A stretch of 57,512 bases of DNA from Nitrospirota bacterium (GCA_013388455.1 JACAFF010000041.1:1-57512); one strand, 5' to 3'; positions 19,873-33,088 are shown, counted from the stretch's first letter. Notes: generated from the letters alone by a model not told the origin. Made by a program: numbers and translations.

Positions 19873-22800
19873 TTAGAAAAAATTTATTTTCCATATTCCC
19901 ACGTGATCTCGAATAAATTCTATATAATAAGAATGTTCAACTTCATCCTGGGTAACAGTCATGTCGTATTCTGCAAGACTGTCTTCCAGATCCTTCATTG
20001 TGATTTCTCCCATATCTTGAACAATTATTGAAAGTATATCTCTCATCAATTCAAAGTTATATCTATACATTTCCTCTGAATGTTTACTAATGTTTTTTAA
20101 TCCTCCTTCTACATCCTGATTTGCCAAAGATCCTTTCATCCCTTCCCATTTCCCTCTGAGCAATCTATCCATCTGGGACTTATTCAATACGATTACCGCA
20201 ATTGTATCTTCATAGAGAATGTTATCAGGTCCTGTTACACTTGCTGTAATATAGTATATTCCCTCTGCTTTCATTCTTATCGTGTATTCATCAGGAGTTG
20301 AGGACATGATTTCAGGTATTATTGGCCCTGTTATATTGAGTGATGAGTTTTCTATACTGAATGAACCATCTATTCTTAAGATTACTTCCATTGGCAATAT
20401 TCCTGACTCGATATTTGAGGTTAACCTTATATAATTGACCGTTGTTAAAGCATTCACATTGATTGATGTGGTTGCGGTATTGCCATCTGTATCTATTGCG
20501 GTTATTGTGATAGTATTAACCCCGTCAACCAGTGGTACATGGTTAGCTACAAACTGATTGCCGTAAACATTTGCGACAATGCCGTTTACGGTTACTCCTG
20601 TCTCGTTCCCTGTGGAGTTGATTATAACACCTCTGACCATTACATCAGGTCTTGTTATCGTTTCCCCGTCTGAAGGTGAACTTATAGCTATCGTAATAGA
20701 TGGTGGAATATCTGCGATAGAGGCTTTCCCATCTGTAAGATTTCTGAATCTTCCTGCCCAGGCATTTATTATATTTTCTATTTTAGGAAGTTCATTCTCA
20801 TTGAATGTGCCTGGTTTTGTGATAAAGAGAAAGGCTGTCTTGAATATCTTCTGGGATTGAGAAGCATCCGGTATCCGCTCTCCTTCAGCAGCAATAATAT
20901 CATTTATGTTTATATATTTTGCTGTGCCTGAGATTGTTGCCCCGATTTCAGGCATTTTAGTTGGGTCAATAGAAGTATTATCAACTAAAAGCATTGGTGG
21001 AACGTGTGTCTTATCATAAATGCCTATGAGATAGAGATCGAGTGAACTGTAATATCTGTTCGCACCAGTTGATGTGAATGTGCCATCTCCATTCTCAATC
21101 CAGTCATTTCCATAAAGCACGGATGCATCTGAATCTAAAAGATAACTCCAGTGGACATTGTCTTTTCCGAGAAGGGCTGTGCTGATGTTTCCACTTTCAT
21201 CTTTAAACTTAACATTTGCTCCCCATCTGTGCATTTGTTCGTGTGCGAGAAGGTTAAGTGTTTCTTCAAATTTGGGATCAATGGGGTTTGTTGTTATGTT
21301 TGCAATATTGCCCATATCAATAGTTCCCTGGAGTTTGCTGTTGCTACCAAAGAGTGATGAATTATCAAAAATGGGTTTTCCTATCCCCTGTATGTCATTC
21401 TTTACCTCAAGATAAAATGCCTTTGCTTCTGAATCAGGCATGGAAAAATCAAAGTTAGTAAAAATAACAAAGAAATCATATTCGTCAGGATGAGTTTTAA
21501 AAAATTCCTTTGCTATTTCCTGCCTTGGTATTGAATTGATTGAGCCATCTGTGGTTCTTGCATTATAGTCTCCTATAAACTCCATCACCGTGATGTTCCT
21601 ATAATCTCCAATGGTTGTTGCCGAACATTTCTTAGTTGTGAAGGTATTATCCATTGAAGATGAAGCTAATCCATAAGTATTATTCGATATTATTCTGAAA
21701 TGATATGTTGTATCAGAAGTGAGGTCTGATAAAGTGATACTATGACTTATTATGAACTCCGAATTCGTTATTGTATTCTCATAGCTTGTTGTCGTGCCAT
21801 ATTCAAAAATTGTTGATGTTGGCTGGTCGGTTGTCCAGGTAATTGTTGCTGAATCAGTAGTTGTACTGCTTACTGCTATGTTGCTTATAATTGGAGCAGT
21901 ACTAAATGTTACTGTTATGCTTTGAGAAGCGGTCTGTCCATATTCATCTGAGGCAAATGCTGTTATTATGTTTTGTCCCTCAGTCAGAAAAATTGATGCA
22001 GAGAAATCACCATTGGTTACAGTTGCCTGTACATCATTAACCGTAACCTGTGCATTATTCGTCACAGTTCCTGCAACATTTACTGGAGAGGAGTTTATTA
22101 AAGCACCATCCTGTGGATATGTAATTGCTATAGTGAGAGGCGGCAGAGGCGTCAATTGTATATCAAGGGTTTTCGTTTCCCCGGAGATAACCGTTCCATT
22201 TGCTTCCTGTTTTAAATAACCTGATTTTTCGAATATTGCTATAAAATTACCAGGGGTAATATTTAATACTGTAAAGTTCCCATCTGAATCTGTGGTAGTT
22301 GAGTTTGAACCAATTGAATCATTTACTGTTACCATTACCCCGGATAAAGGAAAACCTGTAGAATAATCTGTAACTTTCCCTTTCAGAGTCGCTTTTGCTA
22401 AAGGGGTTAATTGGACATCAAGGGTTTGTGTCTGGCCTGATATTAATGTGCCGTTTACAGTTTTCTTCTCATAACCTTCCCTTTCAAAAACTGCGGTATA
22501 AGTGCCCTGATTCAGGTCTGAAATTTTATACATACCGTTTATATCCGTTTCGCTCTGCCACAAATTAAGAAATTCTAATTGAAAGAAGTCGGTAGCAAGA
22601 TATATTTCAAAATCATTTCGATCTTTTTTACTATATGTCCATACAGAAACCCATCCATTCTCATCATAGTAATTATTACTACTTGTATCTATAACTTTCT
22701 CGAAGGATCGGTCTTCTTCATTTTTAGTACCTATCCATTGCGAGGTCAGCGCTTCCCATGAGCCAGATATATCATTCCAGACACCTACAGTAATGGGTTT

Positions 22801-25800
22801 ATATTTGGTTCCTTTGATATGAATATAATCATTACTGAAAGTTTGCTCCTGATTTAATGCATTATCAATATATAACTTGAAGGGTAAGGAAAAATTGCAG
22901 GAAGTATTTCCCGAACGTGCTTCACTATTGTTTATACAACTTTTCCATATACCAAAACGCCTTAAAAATCCTTGTCCCCTTGTATAAGGATTGCTATTTT
23001 CAAATGGAATTGTTAGATAAGAAACATAATGATACTCTTCATAAGCATCATAATTATCTAAGTTAACTTTATTTATTAATAAATAATATGTCTGGTCTTT
23101 ATTTAGAATCACAGGATTCGAAAAGTAAAAATCTACCCATGAATTAGGTGTAACTCCAGCATTCATATAAATAGGGTCACTGTATGCCAATATCTCAAAT
23201 GGTTCGGTAAGAGATGATCGAACAGATATGGAAAAATTTTCATTCAAATTTTGTTCAGCGTACCAGCCAAGGAATAGGCTGATCTTCGTAAGTTTGCCAG
23301 TTTCCCCAGGTTTGAAACTCTGGGCAATTGATTCAATATTGCTATCACCTGATATTCCGTTCCATTCAATTCTAAACTGATCAAATTTATTAAGAGGATT
23401 TCTTATTTTAAAAAGCTGCAAGCAGTAATTATATTCATAATTGCTAATACTTGTATAAACTTTATTTCCATCATTGTACGCAAAAGCATTATACTGATCT
23501 AAAGAAAACGAATAACGTAAATCACTATTATCTAATGGGAGGTAATCTGAAAAGCCTGCATAGGAATATCTATAATCACCAGGACCCAATGTAATAGATC
23601 GAGGAATGTTAACTGACACCTTAACATTTGATAAAGGCAAACCAGTATATGCATCTGTAACCTGTCCTATAATTGAAGCTGCTGGCGGAGCACTGCCTGT
23701 CAAACTTACCGTTGTGTCATAATTATCCCAATCATTAGATGGTATTTTGATAGTACTATTAAAATCACCAGATAACGTCGGTCTAAAATCAACCTGAACT
23801 GAACATGATTCCGAAGTAGATAAAATTCTGCCCGAACACTCATCGGATATAATTCTAAAAGGCTCTGATGGAGTTGATATCATTCCTATTTTCAGATCAC
23901 CACTGCCAATATTTGATACTTTCAAATCTGCCCACGTATAGCCGCCGGCGTTAACAGAACCAAAATCAATTGATTGAGGTTCAACATTGATTTCCCAATC
24001 GTCCAGTCCTCTTGAGGATTGCACACTCACCCATGCCTCTGAAACATCAATCCAGTTCTGGGGAACTACTATTCTGAACTTTATAAATCCAAATCCGTCC
24101 ATAAGATGAAGAAGCTGTGTAAGATCAAGATCGTTCCATCCGCTAATAAGTTCAAAGCTTAATACGGATGATTGCAAAGAAAATCCATCAGCATTATAGG
24201 CATATACATTAACAACCTGTGGTGCACTCTCATAAAGATTGCTCACATAAACACTTAAAACATAGGAAGAAATATCTGTTGCATCAACATCTGTTCGGAG
24301 ATCCAAAATATCATATCTGTTTTTAAATTTCTGTATTCGTGTGCTCTGGTCCAAAAATCCATCTTTCATAATAGAAGTGACATCTACACTGTTTATTTCC
24401 GAACTTGTCGCCGATTTAAGACCTGTACTGTAAACAACATTACTTATCAGGTCTATATGCTCATCACAGACATCTCCAATACCATCTTTATCAAGATCAA
24501 CCTGAGTTGCATTATAGTCTAAAAGGCAGTTGTCTTTTGAGTCAAAAACTCCATCAACATCATTATCAGTGGTGACTTCTATATAATTAGTCACTGTTTT
24601 AGTGTCAGTATTACCAAGAGAATCTGTTACAGTCAGACTGACTGTATATTTGCCAATATTAGTGTATGTATGAAATGGATTCTGTATGGTGGAATCTATA
24701 ATTCCATCGTTATCAAAATCCCATGCCCATGATATTAGTGTCTGGCCTTCAGGCACACCAGATTTGTCAAGAAATTGGACTGTAAATGGTGCTAACCCCT
24801 CTGAAGAATCAACAGAAAATGCAGCCTCTGTCCCTGTATAGAAATTTACATACCAATAATAGTTAACACCCGCCGTATATATTCCATCTTTTACCCATGA
24901 AGTGGTTCCAATATCAATTATGTTTATATTCTGCTCAGGATAAAAACTCCATCTCGTTTTAATTGTTTCCCATATGTGGCCAAAAGGTTGTTGTGATACA
25001 AGGGCAGGCTCCTGAAACTCTCTCTGAGCCCAGATTGCACCATTTGATAATCGAACATGATATGGAAAATCATTCACCAAAATAAGTTTTCCTACCTGAT
25101 AGGGAAATACTGAATCGTATAAATTCCATCCTGAATCCCATGCTTGTGTATGGTCATGAACATAATTTGCATAAAAACCATTGTTCGACAATGAAACTCT
25201 CACATCTCCATTCTTATGAATAACAAATGATTCAATTCCATCAATGTTTTTCTCTTCAAAAAAGGATGCATTATTTGCATTACCTTTTAATATTTTCGTA
25301 CCCATGAGAATATAAGGAATATTATCAGGGCCTATGGCAATTTCAAAATTCGATGGAGCATTAATTTTGTTTTCTTTTGGCCAAATTGAAATCTTATTCC
25401 ATGCGCCCCCTATTCTATTTGCATAATGCAAGGTCATATAATTTCTCCCTTTATATCTCTCATAAAGCTGATAGATGATATGAGGGATATCATTTGAATC
25501 TATTGCTATTGAACACATGCCATTATAGGTATATTTATCAATTTCAAGCAATTCTGTGTTTCCCCATGAATTATCTCCTTTAAGACTATCAGAAGTGTTA
25601 AAAGTCTGATAATAAGGGCGTTTAAGCCGATCAAAAGCAATCATGTGAATCACATTTTGACTATCTACTGCAATCTCTGTCTGTGAGTATAGAAGCCATT
25701 CTTTTGTTGTATTGACTTGTCTCCAGTCATCTCCATTCTCTGAAGTATGGACTTCAAGAAAATGCTCATTATAACTTGTTGATTGGTCACTATTAGCAAA

Positions 25801-25992
25801 AAAATAATAAAGTCTATTTGAAGATGTTCTTATAATATTTCTGTTTCCATATAAAACATGATGAGTATTTCCTGTATCAACAATCACAGGTGTAAGATTA
25901 GCTGCCATGGTCGATAAGGACTCAAATAACAAGAAAAATACAAGATTGAATACGATGTATATTAGTTTGATGGTGTTAAATTTAAGATACAC
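19873..25992 (-). CDS. Giant secreted multidomain protein with HExxH metallopeptidase-like core
   Basis: 2039 residues, GTG start at 25992 after AGGAGG, signal peptide in the first 31 residues. Approximate order: a BNR/propeller-like N-terminus (32-385), a PKD domain (387-477, SWAWDFDNDGIIDS), thrombospondin type 3-like calcium repeats (477-507, DLDKDGIGDVCD), a choice-of-anchor D/ASPM-type domain (669-767), three carboxypeptidase regulatory-like domains (about 770-1284), a glucodextranase-type Ig domain (1284-1364), a fibronectin III domain (1367-1450), a metallopeptidase-like domain (1460-1750) with LLAHEQMHRWG near residue 1582, a second Ig-like domain (1764-1850) and a helical tail. HEQMH fits HExxH. 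I see no sortase or PEP-CTERM sorting signal. Confidence 0.75.
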   Translation of the reverse strand: MYLKFNTIKLIYIVFNLVFFLLFESLSTMAANLTPVIVDTGNTHHVLYGNRNIIRTSSNRLYYFFANSDQSTSYNEHFLEVHTSENGDDWRQVNTTKEWLLYSQTEIAVDSQNVIHMIAFDRLKRPYYQTFNTSDSLKGDNSWGNTELLEIDKYTYNGMCSIAIDSNDIPHIIYQLYERYKGRNYMTLHYANRIGGAWNKISIWPKENKINAPSNFEIAIGPDNIPYILMGTKILKGNANNASFFEEKNIDGIESFVIHKNGDVRVSLSNNGFYANYVHDHTQAWDSGWNLYDSVFPYQVGKLILVNDFPYHVRLSNGAIWAQREFQEPALVSQQPFGHIWETIKTRWSFYPEQNINIIDIGTTSWVKDGIYTAGVNYYWYVNFYTGTEAAFSVDSSEGLAPFTVQFLDKSGVPEGQTLISWAWDFDNDGIIDSTIQNPFHTYTNIGKYTVSLTVTDSLGNTDTKTVTNYIEVTTDNDVDGVFDSKDNCLLDYNATQVDLDKDGIGDVCDEHIDLISNVVYSTGLKSATSSEINSVDVTSIMKDGFLDQSTRIQKFKNRYDILDLRTDVDATDISSYVLSVYVSNLYESAPQVVNVYAYNADGFSLQSSVLSFELISGWNDLDLTQLLHLMDGFGFIKFRIVVPQNWIDVSEAWVSVQSSRGLDDWEINVEPQSIDFGSVNAGGYTWADLKVSNIGSGDLKIGMISTPSEPFRIISDECSGRILSTSESCSVQVDFRPTLSGDFNSTIKIPSNDWDNYDTTVSLTGSAPPAASIIGQVTDAYTGLPLSNVKVSVNIPRSITLGPGDYRYSYAGFSDYLPLDNSDLRYSFSLDQYNAFAYNDGNKVYTSISNYEYNYCLQLFKIRNPLNKFDQFRIEWNGISGDSNIESIAQSFKPGETGKLTKISLFLGWYAEQNLNENFSISVRSSLTEPFEILAYSDPIYMNAGVTPNSWVDFYFSNPVILNKDQTYYLLINKVNLDNYDAYEEYHYVSYLTIPFENSNPYTRGQGFLRRFGIWKSCINNSEARSGNTSCNFSLPFKLYIDNALNQEQTFSNDYIHIKGTKYKPITVGVWNDISGSWEALTSQWIGTKNEEDRSFEKVIDTSSNNYYDENGWVSVWTYSKKDRNDFEIYLATDFFQLEFLNLWQSETDINGMYKISDLNQGTYTAVFEREGYEKKTVNGTLISGQTQTLDVQLTPLAKATLKGKVTDYSTGFPLSGVMVTVNDSIGSNSTTTDSDGNFTVLNITPGNFIAIFEKSGYLKQEANGTVISGETKTLDIQLTPLPPLTIAITYPQDGALINSSPVNVAGTVTNNAQVTVNDVQATVTNGDFSASIFLTEGQNIITAFASDEYGQTASQSITVTFSTAPIISNIAVSSTTTDSATITWTTDQPTSTIFEYGTTTSYENTITNSEFIISHSITLSDLTSDTTYHFRIISNNTYGLASSSMDNTFTTKKCSATTIGDYRNITVMEFIGDYNARTTDGSINSIPRQEIAKEFFKTHPDEYDFFVIFTNFDFSMPDSEAKAFYLEVKNDIQGIGKPIFDNSSLFGSNSKLQGTIDMGNIANITTNPIDPKFEETLNLLAHEQMHRWGANVKFKDESGNISTALLGKDNVHWSYLLDSDASVLYGNDWIENGDGTFTSTGANRYYSSLDLYLIGIYDKTHVPPMLLVDNTSIDPTKMPEIGATISGTAKYININDIIAAEGERIPDASQSQKIFKTAFLFITKPGTFNENELPKIENIINAWAGRFRNLTDGKASIADIPPSITIAISSPSDGETITRPDVMVRGVIINSTGNETGVTVNGIVANVYGNQFVANHVPLVDGVNTITITAIDTDGNTATTSINVNALTTVNYIRLTSNIESGILPMEVILRIDGSFSIENSSLNITGPIIPEIMSSTPDEYTIRMKAEGIYYITASVTGPDNILYEDTIAVIVLNKSQMDRLLRGKWEGMKGSLANQDVEGGLKNISKHSEEMYRYNFELMRDILSIIVQDMGEITMKDLEDSLAEYDMTVTQDEVEHSYYIEFIRDHVGIWKINFF

Positions 25993-27425: not shown

Positions 27426-27593
27426 TTATACATTTCCTGTAATAAATTAACCCTAAAAATATATTCAATAACCAGATTGTCACATCCCAAATGGTTTAAG
27501 GGCTTGCAATTAGAATTTTATAGGTATATCTGGGTCAAATATAATAGTTTTCCGTATAAAATATTATATTATATAATGAAAAAGGGATTTAAG

Positions 27594-30500
27594 ATGACAA
27601 CAAATATAGCTAAGGAATCACCATCTGAATATGAAATTCTACAGGATGTAGTAAAAGCCTATCCTGGCATAATGAGTGCTTCTGAAATATTATTTCGAGA
27701 ATTAAAAAGTTCTCCGAGAAAATGGGATACAATTGTTAAAGAATTAAAAAATCATGCTCTAAAAAACTTTTATCTTCACGACCATCATGAAAAAGGAAGT
27801 GAAGCAATCAAAGCAGTAATATCTATTTTTCTGGAGGCCATAGATTCTTCAACAGATCCATCCGTGCAACAGGCCGCAATAGATGGGCTTATCTTTTATA
27901 TTGAAAAAATTCTTATTGATGGCAGTAATAATCTGAATAAATATGGAGCAATTTTGAATTACTGTTTTCAAAGACTTTTTCAATTCGATAAAAACCATTT
28001 TTCCATGCTAATCACCAATCCACATCAATTGAAAAAATTGGGACAGATCATTTACGGCAAGATGCCGAATCAATTGGACATTGTTCAATTCAACAACCTG
28101 CTTTTCAGATTTTTTTCAGAGACTTATGAATTCTGGTTAAATGAGCCAGATCCTATAAAATGGTTTTGTGACGGAAATAATTATGACCTGAGTAAAAAAG
28201 AACTAAAAAATATAAAAGAATTATTATTTCCATTATCACATGAAAATTTAAAAAAAATCCTGTCACATCTTCAAACAATAAATGCTTCATCTGATCAAAT
28301 GCATCGTTTAAAAGAACTTCTACAGTTGCCAGGGTATCTTCAACTTGTTAAATATCACGAGGATCTAATAAGCAAATTAAATATAACAGGTAATTTATCA
28401 AGAGACCTCAATCTAAAAATATCCTATCTTTTTAAAATCATGGAAACAAAAGGGCTTTCGAGTATACACGAAAATACCCTGAGGGAAATAAATCGGACTG
28501 CTTCAAGCATTATAAAAATCGAACAGCATGAACAAATACAGAAAATTCTTGTAGACCTCTTCATTATCCTGAAAAAGTGCATGACCAATTTTCCAGAAAC
28601 GGTTTTATACCTGATTCAAAGTATTGGTAATGAAATATATGCAACTGGTAGCAGCAAACTTGTTGAATGGTATCATAACAAAATAATATCTCTCGGATTT
28701 CAATATCCTGAAATTCAGGGCACCACAGAAGAATGGCAGGTAAAATCAAACCGAACTCATTTGAAAAATATTCGCACATGGCTCGAGCTAATAGAGAACA
28801 GCCCTAAGTGGTCTAAATCACTCATATCTGCTCTGATAATCAATCTAAAACTTGCAGGTGTCCATATTGATGATACTGATATCTTTCAGAAGGATGTAAC
28901 TAAGCTTCTTAATAGTGATATTAAACCTGTTTATTTTTTGGTGAAAAAGCTGGCAAAATTATTCCCTGTCTATTTCAGCGAAGTTGGCGCAGAAGGTCCT
29001 TTAAGAGAAGTTTCTACAGAGATTGATGAAATAACTGGAAGAGCTGATCTGCTTGTTCATTTCCTGCGAAAACAGAGTCATGTTGAAAGCAGTTATAGAG
29101 TTGTTGATTTTATAGAGAGCGTTATCAACTTTTGGTTAACAAAAAACAAAAGCTATCTGAAAGAATTTATACCTTCTGAGCTCTATGAGCGAATAAAAAC
29201 AGATGGCCATTTTATCGATGAGTTACATATTATCTTTAATCACATTTTCAGAGAAAAAGGGTTCCATTCAATAACAGACCTTATCACATTATCTGATGAA
29301 GAAATAATTCACATAACAAATAGTATTCCTCATATATCTGCCAGGGAGAAAAAACGTTCTTTTCTCGCTATAAAGTTTTATCATCTGCTCAGAAAAAAAT
29401 ATAAACTCGATCCACAGCATATCAAAGATCATCTGAAGTCTGCTCAGAGTCTGGGGCTTCCCAGTCCAGAAACATTAATTACCAGCCTTGAGAATGGAAA
29501 TGTTTTTGACAAGCTTGACGAAGTATTGAATTATATGCAGATGCTGAAAGACATCATACTGTCTCCAGAAAAATTTGAACCTGTTGAAAATTTATTCCGC
29601 AAAAGACATATAGCAGTCGGGATAGCCTCGATATACGGTAAGTATAATGAGAGGAAATTTGATGCACTTGCATTAACATTCCGCCTTGAAAATCTGGCTA
29701 ATATACTTTTCGAAGAACTTATTTGTTCAATCAATCTAAAATTTATCACAAGGGCAACTTTATTTGATATTGAGAGGTTTGCAAAACTATTTTTCAAAGC
29801 AATGCAACTTGATGGAATTTCATCGAATAGATTCGAAAATACTCTTGAATTATTAAGTGTTGCTCTCGAAGTAAGAAGATTTTCTTTTTCGCAATATATT
29901 GACATTTTTAAGGGATTTTCAGAAGCAGTACAGGATATTCTTAATACCTATTACAACGATGTTTTTAAAAACAATCTTAAAAAGATCATTTTACAAATCG
30001 GCGAGAAAAATATACTACCGAAATATCTCGGAGTCGGCAAATCCAAGACTGAATTTGAATTCATTCATACAGTATCCGAACAATTCCTGAGGGAAATTGT
30101 TGCAAGCTCATTTGGCCTGCAACAGCTTGACACATTCATAAGTAATATTTTAAAAACTCTTTTTGAACAATCTGAAGAACTTGATATACAAAACCTCGAT
30201 CTGCTTATGAGTTATGATCCTAAAAAGTCACTCTCTAACATATATTCACCTAACAATACAACATACGACAGAATTCATCTGGGCAATAAGGGATATAATC
30301 TTGTCAAAATGGCTTCTCTGGGAATTCCTGTGCCACCTGGTTTTATTATAACTACAGAAGTTTTCCGTTGTGAAAAATCAATAAATAAATTTTTTTATGC
30401 CAGAGAGCATCTTGAAGAAGGAATTACTGAAGAGATTAAAAAACTCGAAAAATTAACAGGAAAATTTTTTGGTAATCCAGAAAATCCACTTCTAGTTTCT

Positions 30501-31763
30501 GTGAGAAGTGGGGGAGCCATCTCTATGCCTGGCATGATGATTTCTTTTCTGAATGTTGGAATAAATGAATCAATTGTTGAGGGACTCATTAATCAAACTA
30601 AAAGACCATGGTTTGCATGGGACTGTTACAGAAGATTTCTACAATGCTGGGGAATGTCATACGGCATGGAGAGGGATAAATTTGATGACATTATGAATTC
30701 GTTCAAATTAAAGTATAAAGTTTCTAAGAAAATTCAATTTTCACCCACTCAGATGAAGGACATGGCCTTTGCTTACAGAGAAGCTATTCTGAGCAACGGT
30801 ATAGAAATCACTGATGACCCAAAAATGCAGTTGAAGATTGCAATAGCGCAGGTCTTTCAATCATGGTTTTCAAAAAAGGCGCAGACATATCGCGAACTGT
30901 TGTGTATTTCTGAAAACTGGGGAACAGCGGTGATAGTTCAAGCTATGGTTTATGGGAATCTCGGGACCGAAGCTGGAACCGGTGTTCTCTTCACCCGTAA
31001 CCCTTATGAATCATCTGACAAAGTTCTGTTATGGGGTGACTTTGCTACAGGTGCTCAGGGAGAAGACATTGTATTGGGACTTGTCAAAACTCTGCCTATT
31101 TCAAATGATCAAAAACCATTTGAAGACAGAATAACAGAACCATCATTCGAAGAAAGCTTTCCTGAAGTTTATGAAGAACTCCTTACGATAATTAAAGATT
31201 TGATTTATAAAGAAAGATGGGGAGCACAGGAGATAGAATTCACTTTCGAAGGTAAAAGTAGGGACAAGCTCTTTATACTTCAAACACGTGATATGACTAT
31301 TTCAAGAAAAGAGAAAATCATGGCTTTTATGCCTTCTAAAAAACTACTTTCTCACTATATTTCACGAGGAATCGGCGTAGGTGGAGGTGCAATGAGCGGC
31401 AGAATCGTCTTCGATTTAGATGAAATACAACATTTTAAGAAAGAAGATCCGTCTGCAAATGTAATTTTAGTAAGATCAGATACTGTGCCTGATGACATCA
31501 AGCATATATCAGCAGCAGATGGCCTTCTTACTGCGCGTGGAGGTTCAACTTCTCATGCTGCAATAATTGCAAACCGTCTCGGTAAAACATGTGTTGTAGG
31601 ATGCAACAATCTTATTGTTTGGGAACAAGAAAAGAAATGCAAAATAAACAACCGAATTTTAAAGACGGGAGATTTCTTAAGTATCGACGGAAGAAATGGT
31701 TCAGTATATACCGGTAAACATCTGATTGAAGAGATTAAGGCAGAAATCATATCAGATTTATAG
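27594..31763 (+). CDS. PPDK-like phosphotransferase: ATP-grasp and swivelling-His domains behind a large helical N-terminus, no PEP/pyruvate barrel
   Basis: 1389 residues from the ATG at 27594 (AGGG 8 nt upstream; an ATG at 27576 lacks one). Residues 1 to about 880 are alpha-helical with no family I recognise. About 885-1245 is a pyruvate phosphate dikinase N-terminal ATP-binding domain (LGNKGYNLVKMASLGIPVPP, SVRSGGAISMPGMM, GTGVLFTRNP, LQTRDM). About 1255-1385 is the phosphohistidine swivelling domain with GGSTSHAAI, the catalytic His near residue 1320. The protein ends there: the C-terminal PEP/pyruvate-binding TIM barrel of PPDK and PEP synthase is absent. It therefore may phosphorylate another acceptor or work with a separate partner. 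GAPDH follows 50 bp downstream. Confidence 0.82.
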   Translation: MTTNIAKESPSEYEILQDVVKAYPGIMSASEILFRELKSSPRKWDTIVKELKNHALKNFYLHDHHEKGSEAIKAVISIFLEAIDSSTDPSVQQAAIDGLIFYIEKILIDGSNNLNKYGAILNYCFQRLFQFDKNHFSMLITNPHQLKKLGQIIYGKMPNQLDIVQFNNLLFRFFSETYEFWLNEPDPIKWFCDGNNYDLSKKELKNIKELLFPLSHENLKKILSHLQTINASSDQMHRLKELLQLPGYLQLVKYHEDLISKLNITGNLSRDLNLKISYLFKIMETKGLSSIHENTLREINRTASSIIKIEQHEQIQKILVDLFIILKKCMTNFPETVLYLIQSIGNEIYATGSSKLVEWYHNKIISLGFQYPEIQGTTEEWQVKSNRTHLKNIRTWLELIENSPKWSKSLISALIINLKLAGVHIDDTDIFQKDVTKLLNSDIKPVYFLVKKLAKLFPVYFSEVGAEGPLREVSTEIDEITGRADLLVHFLRKQSHVESSYRVVDFIESVINFWLTKNKSYLKEFIPSELYERIKTDGHFIDELHIIFNHIFREKGFHSITDLITLSDEEIIHITNSIPHISAREKKRSFLAIKFYHLLRKKYKLDPQHIKDHLKSAQSLGLPSPETLITSLENGNVFDKLDEVLNYMQMLKDIILSPEKFEPVENLFRKRHIAVGIASIYGKYNERKFDALALTFRLENLANILFEELICSINLKFITRATLFDIERFAKLFFKAMQLDGISSNRFENTLELLSVALEVRRFSFSQYIDIFKGFSEAVQDILNTYYNDVFKNNLKKIILQIGEKNILPKYLGVGKSKTEFEFIHTVSEQFLREIVASSFGLQQLDTFISNILKTLFEQSEELDIQNLDLLMSYDPKKSLSNIYSPNNTTYDRIHLGNKGYNLVKMASLGIPVPPGFIITTEVFRCEKSINKFFYAREHLEEGITEEIKKLEKLTGKFFGNPENPLLVSVRSGGAISMPGMMISFLNVGINESIVEGLINQTKRPWFAWDCYRRFLQCWGMSYGMERDKFDDIMNSFKLKYKVSKKIQFSPTQMKDMAFAYREAILSNGIEITDDPKMQLKIAIAQVFQSWFSKKAQTYRELLCISENWGTAVIVQAMVYGNLGTEAGTGVLFTRNPYESSDKVLLWGDFATGAQGEDIVLGLVKTLPISNDQKPFEDRITEPSFEESFPEVYEELLTIIKDLIYKERWGAQEIEFTFEGKSRDKLFILQTRDMTISRKEKIMAFMPSKKLLSHYISRGIGVGGGAMSGRIVFDLDEIQHFKKEDPSANVILVRSDTVPDDIKHISAADGLLTARGGSTSHAAIIANRLGKTCVVGCNNLIVWEQEKKCKINNRILKTGDFLSIDGRNGSVYTGKHLIEEIKAEIISDL

Positions 31764-31813: not shown

Positions 31814-33088
31814 ATGGAAAAGAAAAAAATGAAAATCATATCTGAGAAAAAGAAAATTCTTGGTATTAATGGTCTTGGAAGAATAGGTAAATTGACCCTC
31901 TGGAATCATATCGGAAGAAAATATTTTTCTGAAATAGTAGTAAATATTGGCAGAACAGCGGGGTCAAATCTTCATGATATAGCCCTCTATATAGAAAAAG
32001 ACTCAACATATGGTTTATTACAAAATTATCTTTACGGTTACAAAGCAAAAAGGATAATCGAACAGGTTGACGAAGAAAATGGCACTATGCTGATAGATGG
32101 TATACCTGTAACTATATTAAGAGAAACACGGAATCCCAAAAATATTCCATGGAAAGACTATGGTGTTAAAGTGGTTGTTGAGGCAACTGGCAAGTTCACA
32201 AATCCAGTTGCTGATGCAGATGTAAAGGAAGGATCGGTAAGAGGACATCTCGAAGGTGGAGCAGAAAAGGTTCTGGTATCAGCTCCCTTTAAAATAAAGG
32301 AAAAAAATATTCCTATGCCAGGCGATATTATAACCGTTGTCATGGGAATCAATGAGCAGGAGTATGATCATTCAAAACATCACATAATCTCCGGAGCATC
32401 ATGCACGACTACATGTCTTGCACATATGGTTAAGCCTTTGCTGGATTATTTTGGGTCAGAAAAGATAATAAGCGCTTCTATGGATACAATTCATGCTGCT
32501 ACAGGAACTCAAGCTGTTCTGGACAGATTGCCCAAGGCAGGTGCAACAGATCTCAGAAAAACCAGAAGTGTAATGAATAATATCATCCTTACTACTACAG
32601 GTGCTGCTAAAACCCTAGGCCTTGTTATACCAGAAATGAATAAAATAGGTTTTATGGCAGAGTCTGTACGCATCCCCACTTCAACAGGCTCACTTATAAT
32701 TCTTGTTATTACTCTCTATGATGATCCGGACAAAGCACCTGTTAGTAGAGATATTATCAATAATATATATCGCGAAGCTGAAAAACGTGAAAAAAGAGGA
32801 TACATAAAATATACTGATGAGCAAAATGTATCTTCTGATATAATCGGACTATATGGTCCTGCTGCAATTATTGAAGGACATGAAACGCATACAAGAACTG
32901 CGAACATCTCTCTTAATATAAAGAAACTTTATAAAATTACAGGAGACGTTGAAGCCTGTATCCCTGACAAGATTGAGATTCCTGTAACTAATGCAGTCAT
33001 ATACGGTTGGTATGATAACGAACTTGGAAGCTATACAAACATGCTCGGAGACTTAACAGTAAAGATAGCATCAATGGTATATCAATAA
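31814..33088 (+). CDS. gap: Glyceraldehyde-3-phosphate dehydrogenase, long divergent form
   Basis: 424 residues against about 335 for common GAPDH. Rossmann motif GINGLGRIGKLTLW, active-site ASCTTTCLAH (Cys near residue 196; the canonical ASCTTNCLAP has Asn and Pro) and TIHAATGTQ with the catalytic His. Extra segments lie at residues 40-110 and 330-370. NAD(P) preference cannot be read reliably. It is in the same direction as, and 50 bp behind, the PPDK-like gene, suggesting a shared role in lower glycolysis or gluconeogenesis. Distinct long GAPDH types exist in several anaerobes, so the divergence may be lineage-typical. Confidence 0.88.
   Translation: MEKKKMKIISEKKKILGINGLGRIGKLTLWNHIGRKYFSEIVVNIGRTAGSNLHDIALYIEKDSTYGLLQNYLYGYKAKRIIEQVDEENGTMLIDGIPVTILRETRNPKNIPWKDYGVKVVVEATGKFTNPVADADVKEGSVRGHLEGGAEKVLVSAPFKIKEKNIPMPGDIITVVMGINEQEYDHSKHHIISGASCTTTCLAHMVKPLLDYFGSEKIISASMDTIHAATGTQAVLDRLPKAGATDLRKTRSVMNNIILTTTGAAKTLGLVIPEMNKIGFMAESVRIPTSTGSLIILVITLYDDPDKAPVSRDIINNIYREAEKREKRGYIKYTDEQNVSSDIIGLYGPAAIIEGHETHTRTANISLNIKKLYKITGDVEACIPDKIEIPVTNAVIYGWYDNELGSYTNMLGDLTVKIASMVYQ

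Follow-up and report, generated by a model that had tools for sequence, protein, structure and literature searches.

What does an enzyme built like pyruvate, phosphate dikinase (PPDK) phosphorylate when the domain that binds PEP and pyruvate is absent from it? This question is raised by a gene in a stretch of 57,512 nucleotides from a Nitrospirota bacterium, analysed as a whole and referred to here as the window. The gene encodes a very large, well-conserved enzyme without a family name, and it adjoins a GAPDH gene in many bacteria that reduce sulfate or disproportionate sulfur and in their relatives, for all of which an ordinary glycolysis is assumed. The evidence assembled below indicates that the enzyme probably performs or controls a step by which sulfur-cycling bacteria make sugars.

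Domain organisation and the PPDK-like catalytic half

The dikinase is encoded on the plus strand, as is the neighbouring GAPDH described below, by a single open frame of 1389 amino acids that runs from an ATG at 27594 to a stop at 31763. An RBS-like AAAGGGA lies upstream of this ATG; a TTG at 27477 would extend the frame, but homologs nonetheless align from 27594. Because homologs of the same layout, 1357–1513 residues long, recur across the whole order and beyond, the frame is a real gene, neither a chance frame nor a truncation. Its domain order is N-terminal region, nucleotide-binding domain (NBD) and His domain, the last two being adjacent. The PPDK-type ATP-grasp NBD occupies residues 893–1234 (30270–31295; Pfam, TIGR and 1kbl/1dik matches) and the swivelling phosphohistidine domain residues 1257–1376 (31362–31721; PF00391, with a match to 2fm4). 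Both Pfam matches above the cut-off, PPDK_N (1.6e-32) and PEP-utilizers (3.7e-20), fall within the last 500 residues. The GGxTSHAA signature of the swivelling domain is present as GGSTSHAAI (residues 1316–1324), in which the predicted phospho-carrier His1321 (codon 31554–31556) is invariant and aligns with PPDK His455. The initial annotation had described these two domains as complete and the PEP/pyruvate acceptor domain as missing. Both statements hold: the catalytic domains span residues 893–1376, and a Pfam search of the 1389-residue protein returned no match to PEP-utilizers_C (PF02896), the PEP/pyruvate barrel.

Judged by alignment and by predicted structure, the catalytic half is specifically PPDK-like, far nearer PPDK than PEP synthase or rifampin kinase. 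Residues 893–1376 align with residues 15–509 of Clostridium symbiosum PPDK (1kbl) at E 4.3e-84, with about 35% identity across the NBD and swivelling domain. AF2 modelled residues 345–1389 with a pLDDT of 88, and the predicted structure superposes on 1dik with a Z of 42 (3.0 Å over 479 residues), far above the values for rifampin phosphotransferase (Z 24) and PEP synthase (Z 22). Profile scores follow the same order, with 420 bits for the PPDK equivalog TIGR01828 against 36 bits for rifamycin phosphotransferase NF041857, both under the equivalog cut-offs of 843 and 999 bits, respectively. Sequence alignments with PPDK and homologs match the retained catalytic positions K899, R971, E1215, Q1230 and R1232 to PPDK K22, R92, E323, Q335 and R337; the position of R1232 is Lys or Arg in the more distant subfamily described below.

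A PPDK that had degenerated or been split would also have its barrel missing, and a separate gene for that barrel had been named beforehand as the mark of an ordinary split enzyme. The host genome (G000, 99.4% complete) encodes just two PEP/pyruvate barrels, one in an 897-residue frame that also holds PPDK_N and one in a 798-residue PEP synthase-like frame. Neither barrel is free-standing: the first belongs to a complete PPDK and the second to PEP synthase, both encoded elsewhere in the genome. A split PPDK was therefore rejected. The catalytic residues are moreover invariant and the architecture is kept across phyla, making any form of degenerate or split PPDK very improbable.

The barrel-less architecture is a conserved family in Nitrospirota and Desulfobacterota. 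Among 61 relatives of the order, 24 genomes hold a full or broken copy of the window's type of dikinase (subfamily A). The more distant subfamily B (L059–L064), found in six of the 61, comprises proteins of about 1450–1510 residues that are about 25% identical and are extended at the N-terminus by about 100 residues or more; both types occur together in one genome (G055). A relative is carried by 30 of 198 sampled Nitrospirota genomes, and a GTDB scan gave at least 514 related stretches, the best 80 of which belong to Nitrospirota and to genomes named Desulfobacterota, Thermodesulfobacteria or unclassified deltaproteobacteria. Since nearly all intact copies are about 1360–1510 residues long, the N-terminal half is not seen alone.

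A candidate acceptor site in the N-terminal region

The N-terminal region of some 880 residues had been noted as unknown, and it keeps that standing here: residues 1–890 match no Pfam or PDB family, with nothing above the Pfam cut-off and chance-level matches only when a 70-sequence profile of the N-terminal half was compared with PDB sequences. A weak, sub-cut-off match to mTOR_dom (E 0.05) was read as a further sign of a helical solenoid. Structure prediction, which the initial annotation had proposed for this region, yielded a confident AF2 model (pLDDT 87, pTM 0.81) that is all-helical except for one beta hairpin at residues 664–685 (29583–29648), the sole hairpin called, whose loop at 671–676 is flexible. 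A fold search with this model found HEAT-like solenoids only, at a TM of about 0.15 and a Z of about 9 or less. For a helical repeat model, matches at this level reflect a common arrangement at most and carry no homology signal, and a related fold may have been missed.

Conservation divides the region in two. Residues 1–340 (27594–28613) form a variable, all-helical and HEAT-like solenoid in the AF2 model, with low conservation and no residue in common with subfamily B. Residues from about 376 to 890 (28719–30263) constitute the proposed acceptor domain, in which 37 positions are conserved across 99 subfamily-A and 5 subfamily-B proteins. Twenty-five of the 37 are polar or aromatic-polar: the basic residues R471, R492, K493, H496, K602, K670, R671, H672, K688 and R833, together with H389, D427, T475, D478, D485, Q494, W514, Y603, E665, S679, Y684, E686, E707, D770 and D846. 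This set persists although overall identity is under 30%. The hairpin carries the motif K670-R671-H672 ... S679 ... G682-x-Y684, which is conserved in A1 and A3, and its K-R-H element is also present in subfamily B. The conserved polar and basic set looks like an active or anion-binding site, and the conservation suggests an acceptor role for residues 376–890. The earlier idea that the N-terminal region is the acceptor part thus becomes probable; the analogies with rifampin kinase and glucan dikinases offered alongside it are less apt, given the PPDK-like catalytic half and the different domain order.

Association with GAPDH and the proposed reaction

Downstream of the dikinase by 51 bp and on the same strand begins GAPDH2 (31814–33088), a second, divergent GAPDH of 424 residues (TIGR01534, 323 bits) with its own RBS-like AAGGGG; no terminator was found in the sequence between the two genes. 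The catalytic motifs SCTTTC, HAAT, TGAAK and VRIP are all retained in GAPDH2. The NAD-type Asp (N-D-L in the canonical partner) is not, its place being taken by V-N-I-G-R. This replacement predicts NADPH use in GAPDHs, and therefore a reductive, gluconeogenic role. GAPDH2 occurs in 22 of the 61 genomes of the order, all of them among the 24 dikinase carriers, where it adjoins the dikinase, and none among the 37 non-carriers; in the two carriers without it, the dikinase is broken over contigs or frames. ATP sulfurylase, glycogen synthase and pyruvate kinase do not distinguish carriers from non-carriers.

The association extends well beyond the order. Of 97 distinct loci, 19 were set aside because their sequence ends too early for a verdict and another 4 because they belong to subfamily B, leaving 74 informative subfamily-A loci. 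In 65 of these a GAPDH with the orientation of the dikinase lies no more than 4 kb away, although the loci are phylogenetically related and the 65 linkages are not independent events; gap, glgA or pgk is near in 68. The partner GAPDH is either of two types that are about 33% identical, and pgk, tpiA or glgA is often also present. The gene orders gap2-dik, gap1-dik-gap2-pgk-tpiA and glgA-gap1-dik are spread over the tree: gap2-dik is found in Nitrospirota and several desulfobacterial clades, gap1-dik-gap2 in Thermodesulfobacteria, with pgk added in some, and gap1-dik in Desulfobulbaceae, often behind glgA, with the link lost in some. The switch between two GAPDH types speaks for a tie by way of the reaction that GAPDH catalyses, and against one that depends on a single protein surface. 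The linkage to GAPDH, which the initial annotation had missed, is the strongest clue to function and the main new evidence.

Thermosulfurimonas dismutans presents the arrangement in compact form, its dikinase being placed between two GAPDHs and next to PGK. These neighbours match TDIS_2022, TDIS_2024 and TDIS_2021 (PGK) of PMC4911364, by which the dikinase would be TDIS_2023; the genome paper lists both flanking GAPDHs but not this gene, and no literature on the dikinase gene was found. T. dismutans is an autotroph that is unable to ferment sugars and whose pathway is thought to run towards gluconeogenesis (PMC4911364), a physiology that fits a reductive, gluconeogenic role.

Replacement of an absent PGK by the dikinase was rejected, as PGK is present in 60 of the 61 relatives. 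One genome rated 100% complete (G009; L058, L069) has the dikinase and GAPDH2, with PGK and canonical GAPDH missing; canonical gap neighbours pgk in relatives, so that a single assembly gap probably explains both absences. Many genomes of the order also encode an additional PGK that is divergent (PF00162, E about 1e-80; for example G059:C30, G037:C114 and G002:C22); its frame spans about 440–510 residues, and its occurrence is unlinked to the presence of the dikinase. Elsewhere in the window, 19873–25992 encodes a secreted-looking protein of 2039 residues in which PKD-like and repeated carboxypeptidase-regulatory-like stretches were judged by eye.

The best explanation, to which a probability of roughly 0.4 is assigned, is a phosphohistidine-relay dikinase in which a new N-terminal helical acceptor domain replaces the PPDK barrel and the acceptor is a C3 intermediate of gluconeogenesis shared with GAPDH, in the section between triose phosphates and 3-phosphoglycerate. 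ATP and Pi would load His1321 with release of AMP and PPi, as in PPDK-type chemistry; the swivelling domain would carry the phosphate from the NBD to the N-terminal domain, where it would pass to a C3 intermediate that GAPDH uses or makes. As the most specific guess, at about one chance in four, this acceptor is 3-phosphoglycerate, converted to 1,3-bisphosphoglycerate that the neighbouring GAPDH then reduces. Such a route would offer a way around PGK that pulls harder towards gluconeogenesis, and in reverse would capture PPi and AMP as ATP. By textbook free energies, ATP to AMP and PPi pulls the 3-phosphoglycerate step harder than PGK does, and PPi and AMP are products of sulfate activation and reduction, PPi being made in quantity by activation. 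That a C3 dikinase, for 3-phosphoglycerate or another acceptor, and a dedicated NADPH-type GAPDH together form a second, AMP/pyrophosphate-coupled route from 3-phosphoglycerate to glyceraldehyde 3-phosphate in sulfur-cycling autotrophs is a speculative extension.

In favour of the best explanation stand the PPDK-specific NBD and His domains, the lack of a free-standing barrel, the conserved polar N-terminal site and the persistent tie to GAPDH and gluconeogenic genes. Against it, canonical gap and pgk are encoded separately in nearly all carriers, so that the pathway lacks no step; gap, glgA and pgk are all absent from the surroundings of six informative subfamily-A loci, among them those of Electrothrix and Desulfobulbus elongatus, and neither GAPDH nor another conserved neighbour was seen at the subfamily-B loci (L059–L064). 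Relatives in sequence or structure give no hint of the acceptor, and HEAT-like helices can equally bind protein. The enzyme may instead be a regulator whose helical N-terminal half binds GAPDH or another gluconeogenic enzyme and whose PPDK half phosphorylates this target or switches it in response to ATP, AMP, Pi and PPi. HEAT-like solenoids usually bind proteins, GAPDH is a constant neighbour and carriers already have those ordinary glycolytic enzymes that were tested; yet a partner GAPDH that is of two types and sometimes absent fits a pathway link better than a fixed binding partner, and the invariant residues are polar, many of them basic, as in an active site. Regulation is a possible but doubtful reading.

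The same linkage would suit a dikinase whose acceptor is some other small molecule that is formed or consumed close to GAPDH, for example glycerate, glyceraldehyde, dihydroxyacetone or a sugar phosphate, and related barrel-less dikinases take rifampin (PMC4844700) or hydroxyphenylethanones and phenol (PMC12167813). Since no kinase gap that such an activity would fill was identified in the pathway, this is unlikely. Decidedly less likely is a glucan dikinase whose acceptor would be glycogen or some oligoglucan, much as starch is for glucan water dikinase. In its support, 13 of the 74 informative loci have glgA upstream of the dikinase and in the same orientation, two of them without GAPDH, and alpha-glucan phosphorylase is near six loci, mostly on the opposite strand. 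The glgA linkage is mainly one of Desulfobulbaceae and relatives, whereas GAPDH takes that place beside the window's dikinase and at most loci; glgA is equally common in carriers and non-carriers, the NBD is the PPDK type that uses Pi, and neither this protein nor three subfamily-B proteins have a carbohydrate-binding Pfam match. At L113, L133, L104, L120 and L129, which are loci of Desulfobulbaceae type, glgA precedes either the dikinase itself or a gap-dikinase pair.

Action on a C3 phosphate would constitute a new reaction in the best-known biochemical pathway, and this reaction might consume or produce pyrophosphate. A regulator would show how energy-limited cells steer gluconeogenesis.

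Comparison with other dikinases

PPDK (TIGR01828; 1kbl, 1dik) and the dikinase share the NBD, the swivelling His domain and all main catalytic positions. They differ in that the dikinase has no PEP/pyruvate barrel and has an N-terminal addition of 890 residues, and the host encodes a true PPDK separately. Glucan, water dikinase and phosphoglucan, water dikinase likewise combine a large N-terminal region with an NBD and a His domain, but in these enzymes the His domain precedes a C-terminal NBD, an order that differs from that of the dikinase, in which no starch-binding (CBM45-type) domain was found by Pfam.

Rifampin phosphotransferase (RPH; PMC4844700), HpeHI and phenylphosphate synthase (PMC12167813) are barrel-swapped dikinases. 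RPH (5hv1), HpeHI (9goj) and PpsAB follow the same logic, with an ATP-grasp domain and a swivelling His domain joined to another acceptor domain in place of the barrel. Their NBDs are only distantly similar to that of the dikinase (Z 24 or less), and their acceptor part accompanies the swivelling His domain and in RPH follows the NBD, whereas the extra region of the dikinase precedes the NBD. The dikinase scores 36 bits against the NF041857 cut-off of 999 and has no acceptor domain between NBD and His domain, and so failed as a rifampin phosphotransferase; its loci, unlike theirs, have no aromatic-catabolism or resistance context.

Another uncharacterised, PPDK-derived protein that looks barrel-less is Desulfovibrio DVU0246/Dde_0604, from a related bacterial group. 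It belongs to a nitrate cluster, and its mutation gives nitrate resistance (PMC4001038). Compared by description only, it is annotated with a PPDK NBD and a mobile domain, the barrel being unmentioned, and it differs from the dikinase in its length of about 744 residues and its signalling and transport cluster.

On sequence and modelled structure, the dikinase appears to belong with the PEP-utilising dikinase superfamily and not with its rifampin-kinase or glucan-dikinase members, and its role probably lies in central metabolism. The order acceptor-NBD-His and an acceptor half without a recognised relative seem to be new, and through them the superfamily would gain both a domain order and an acceptor domain.
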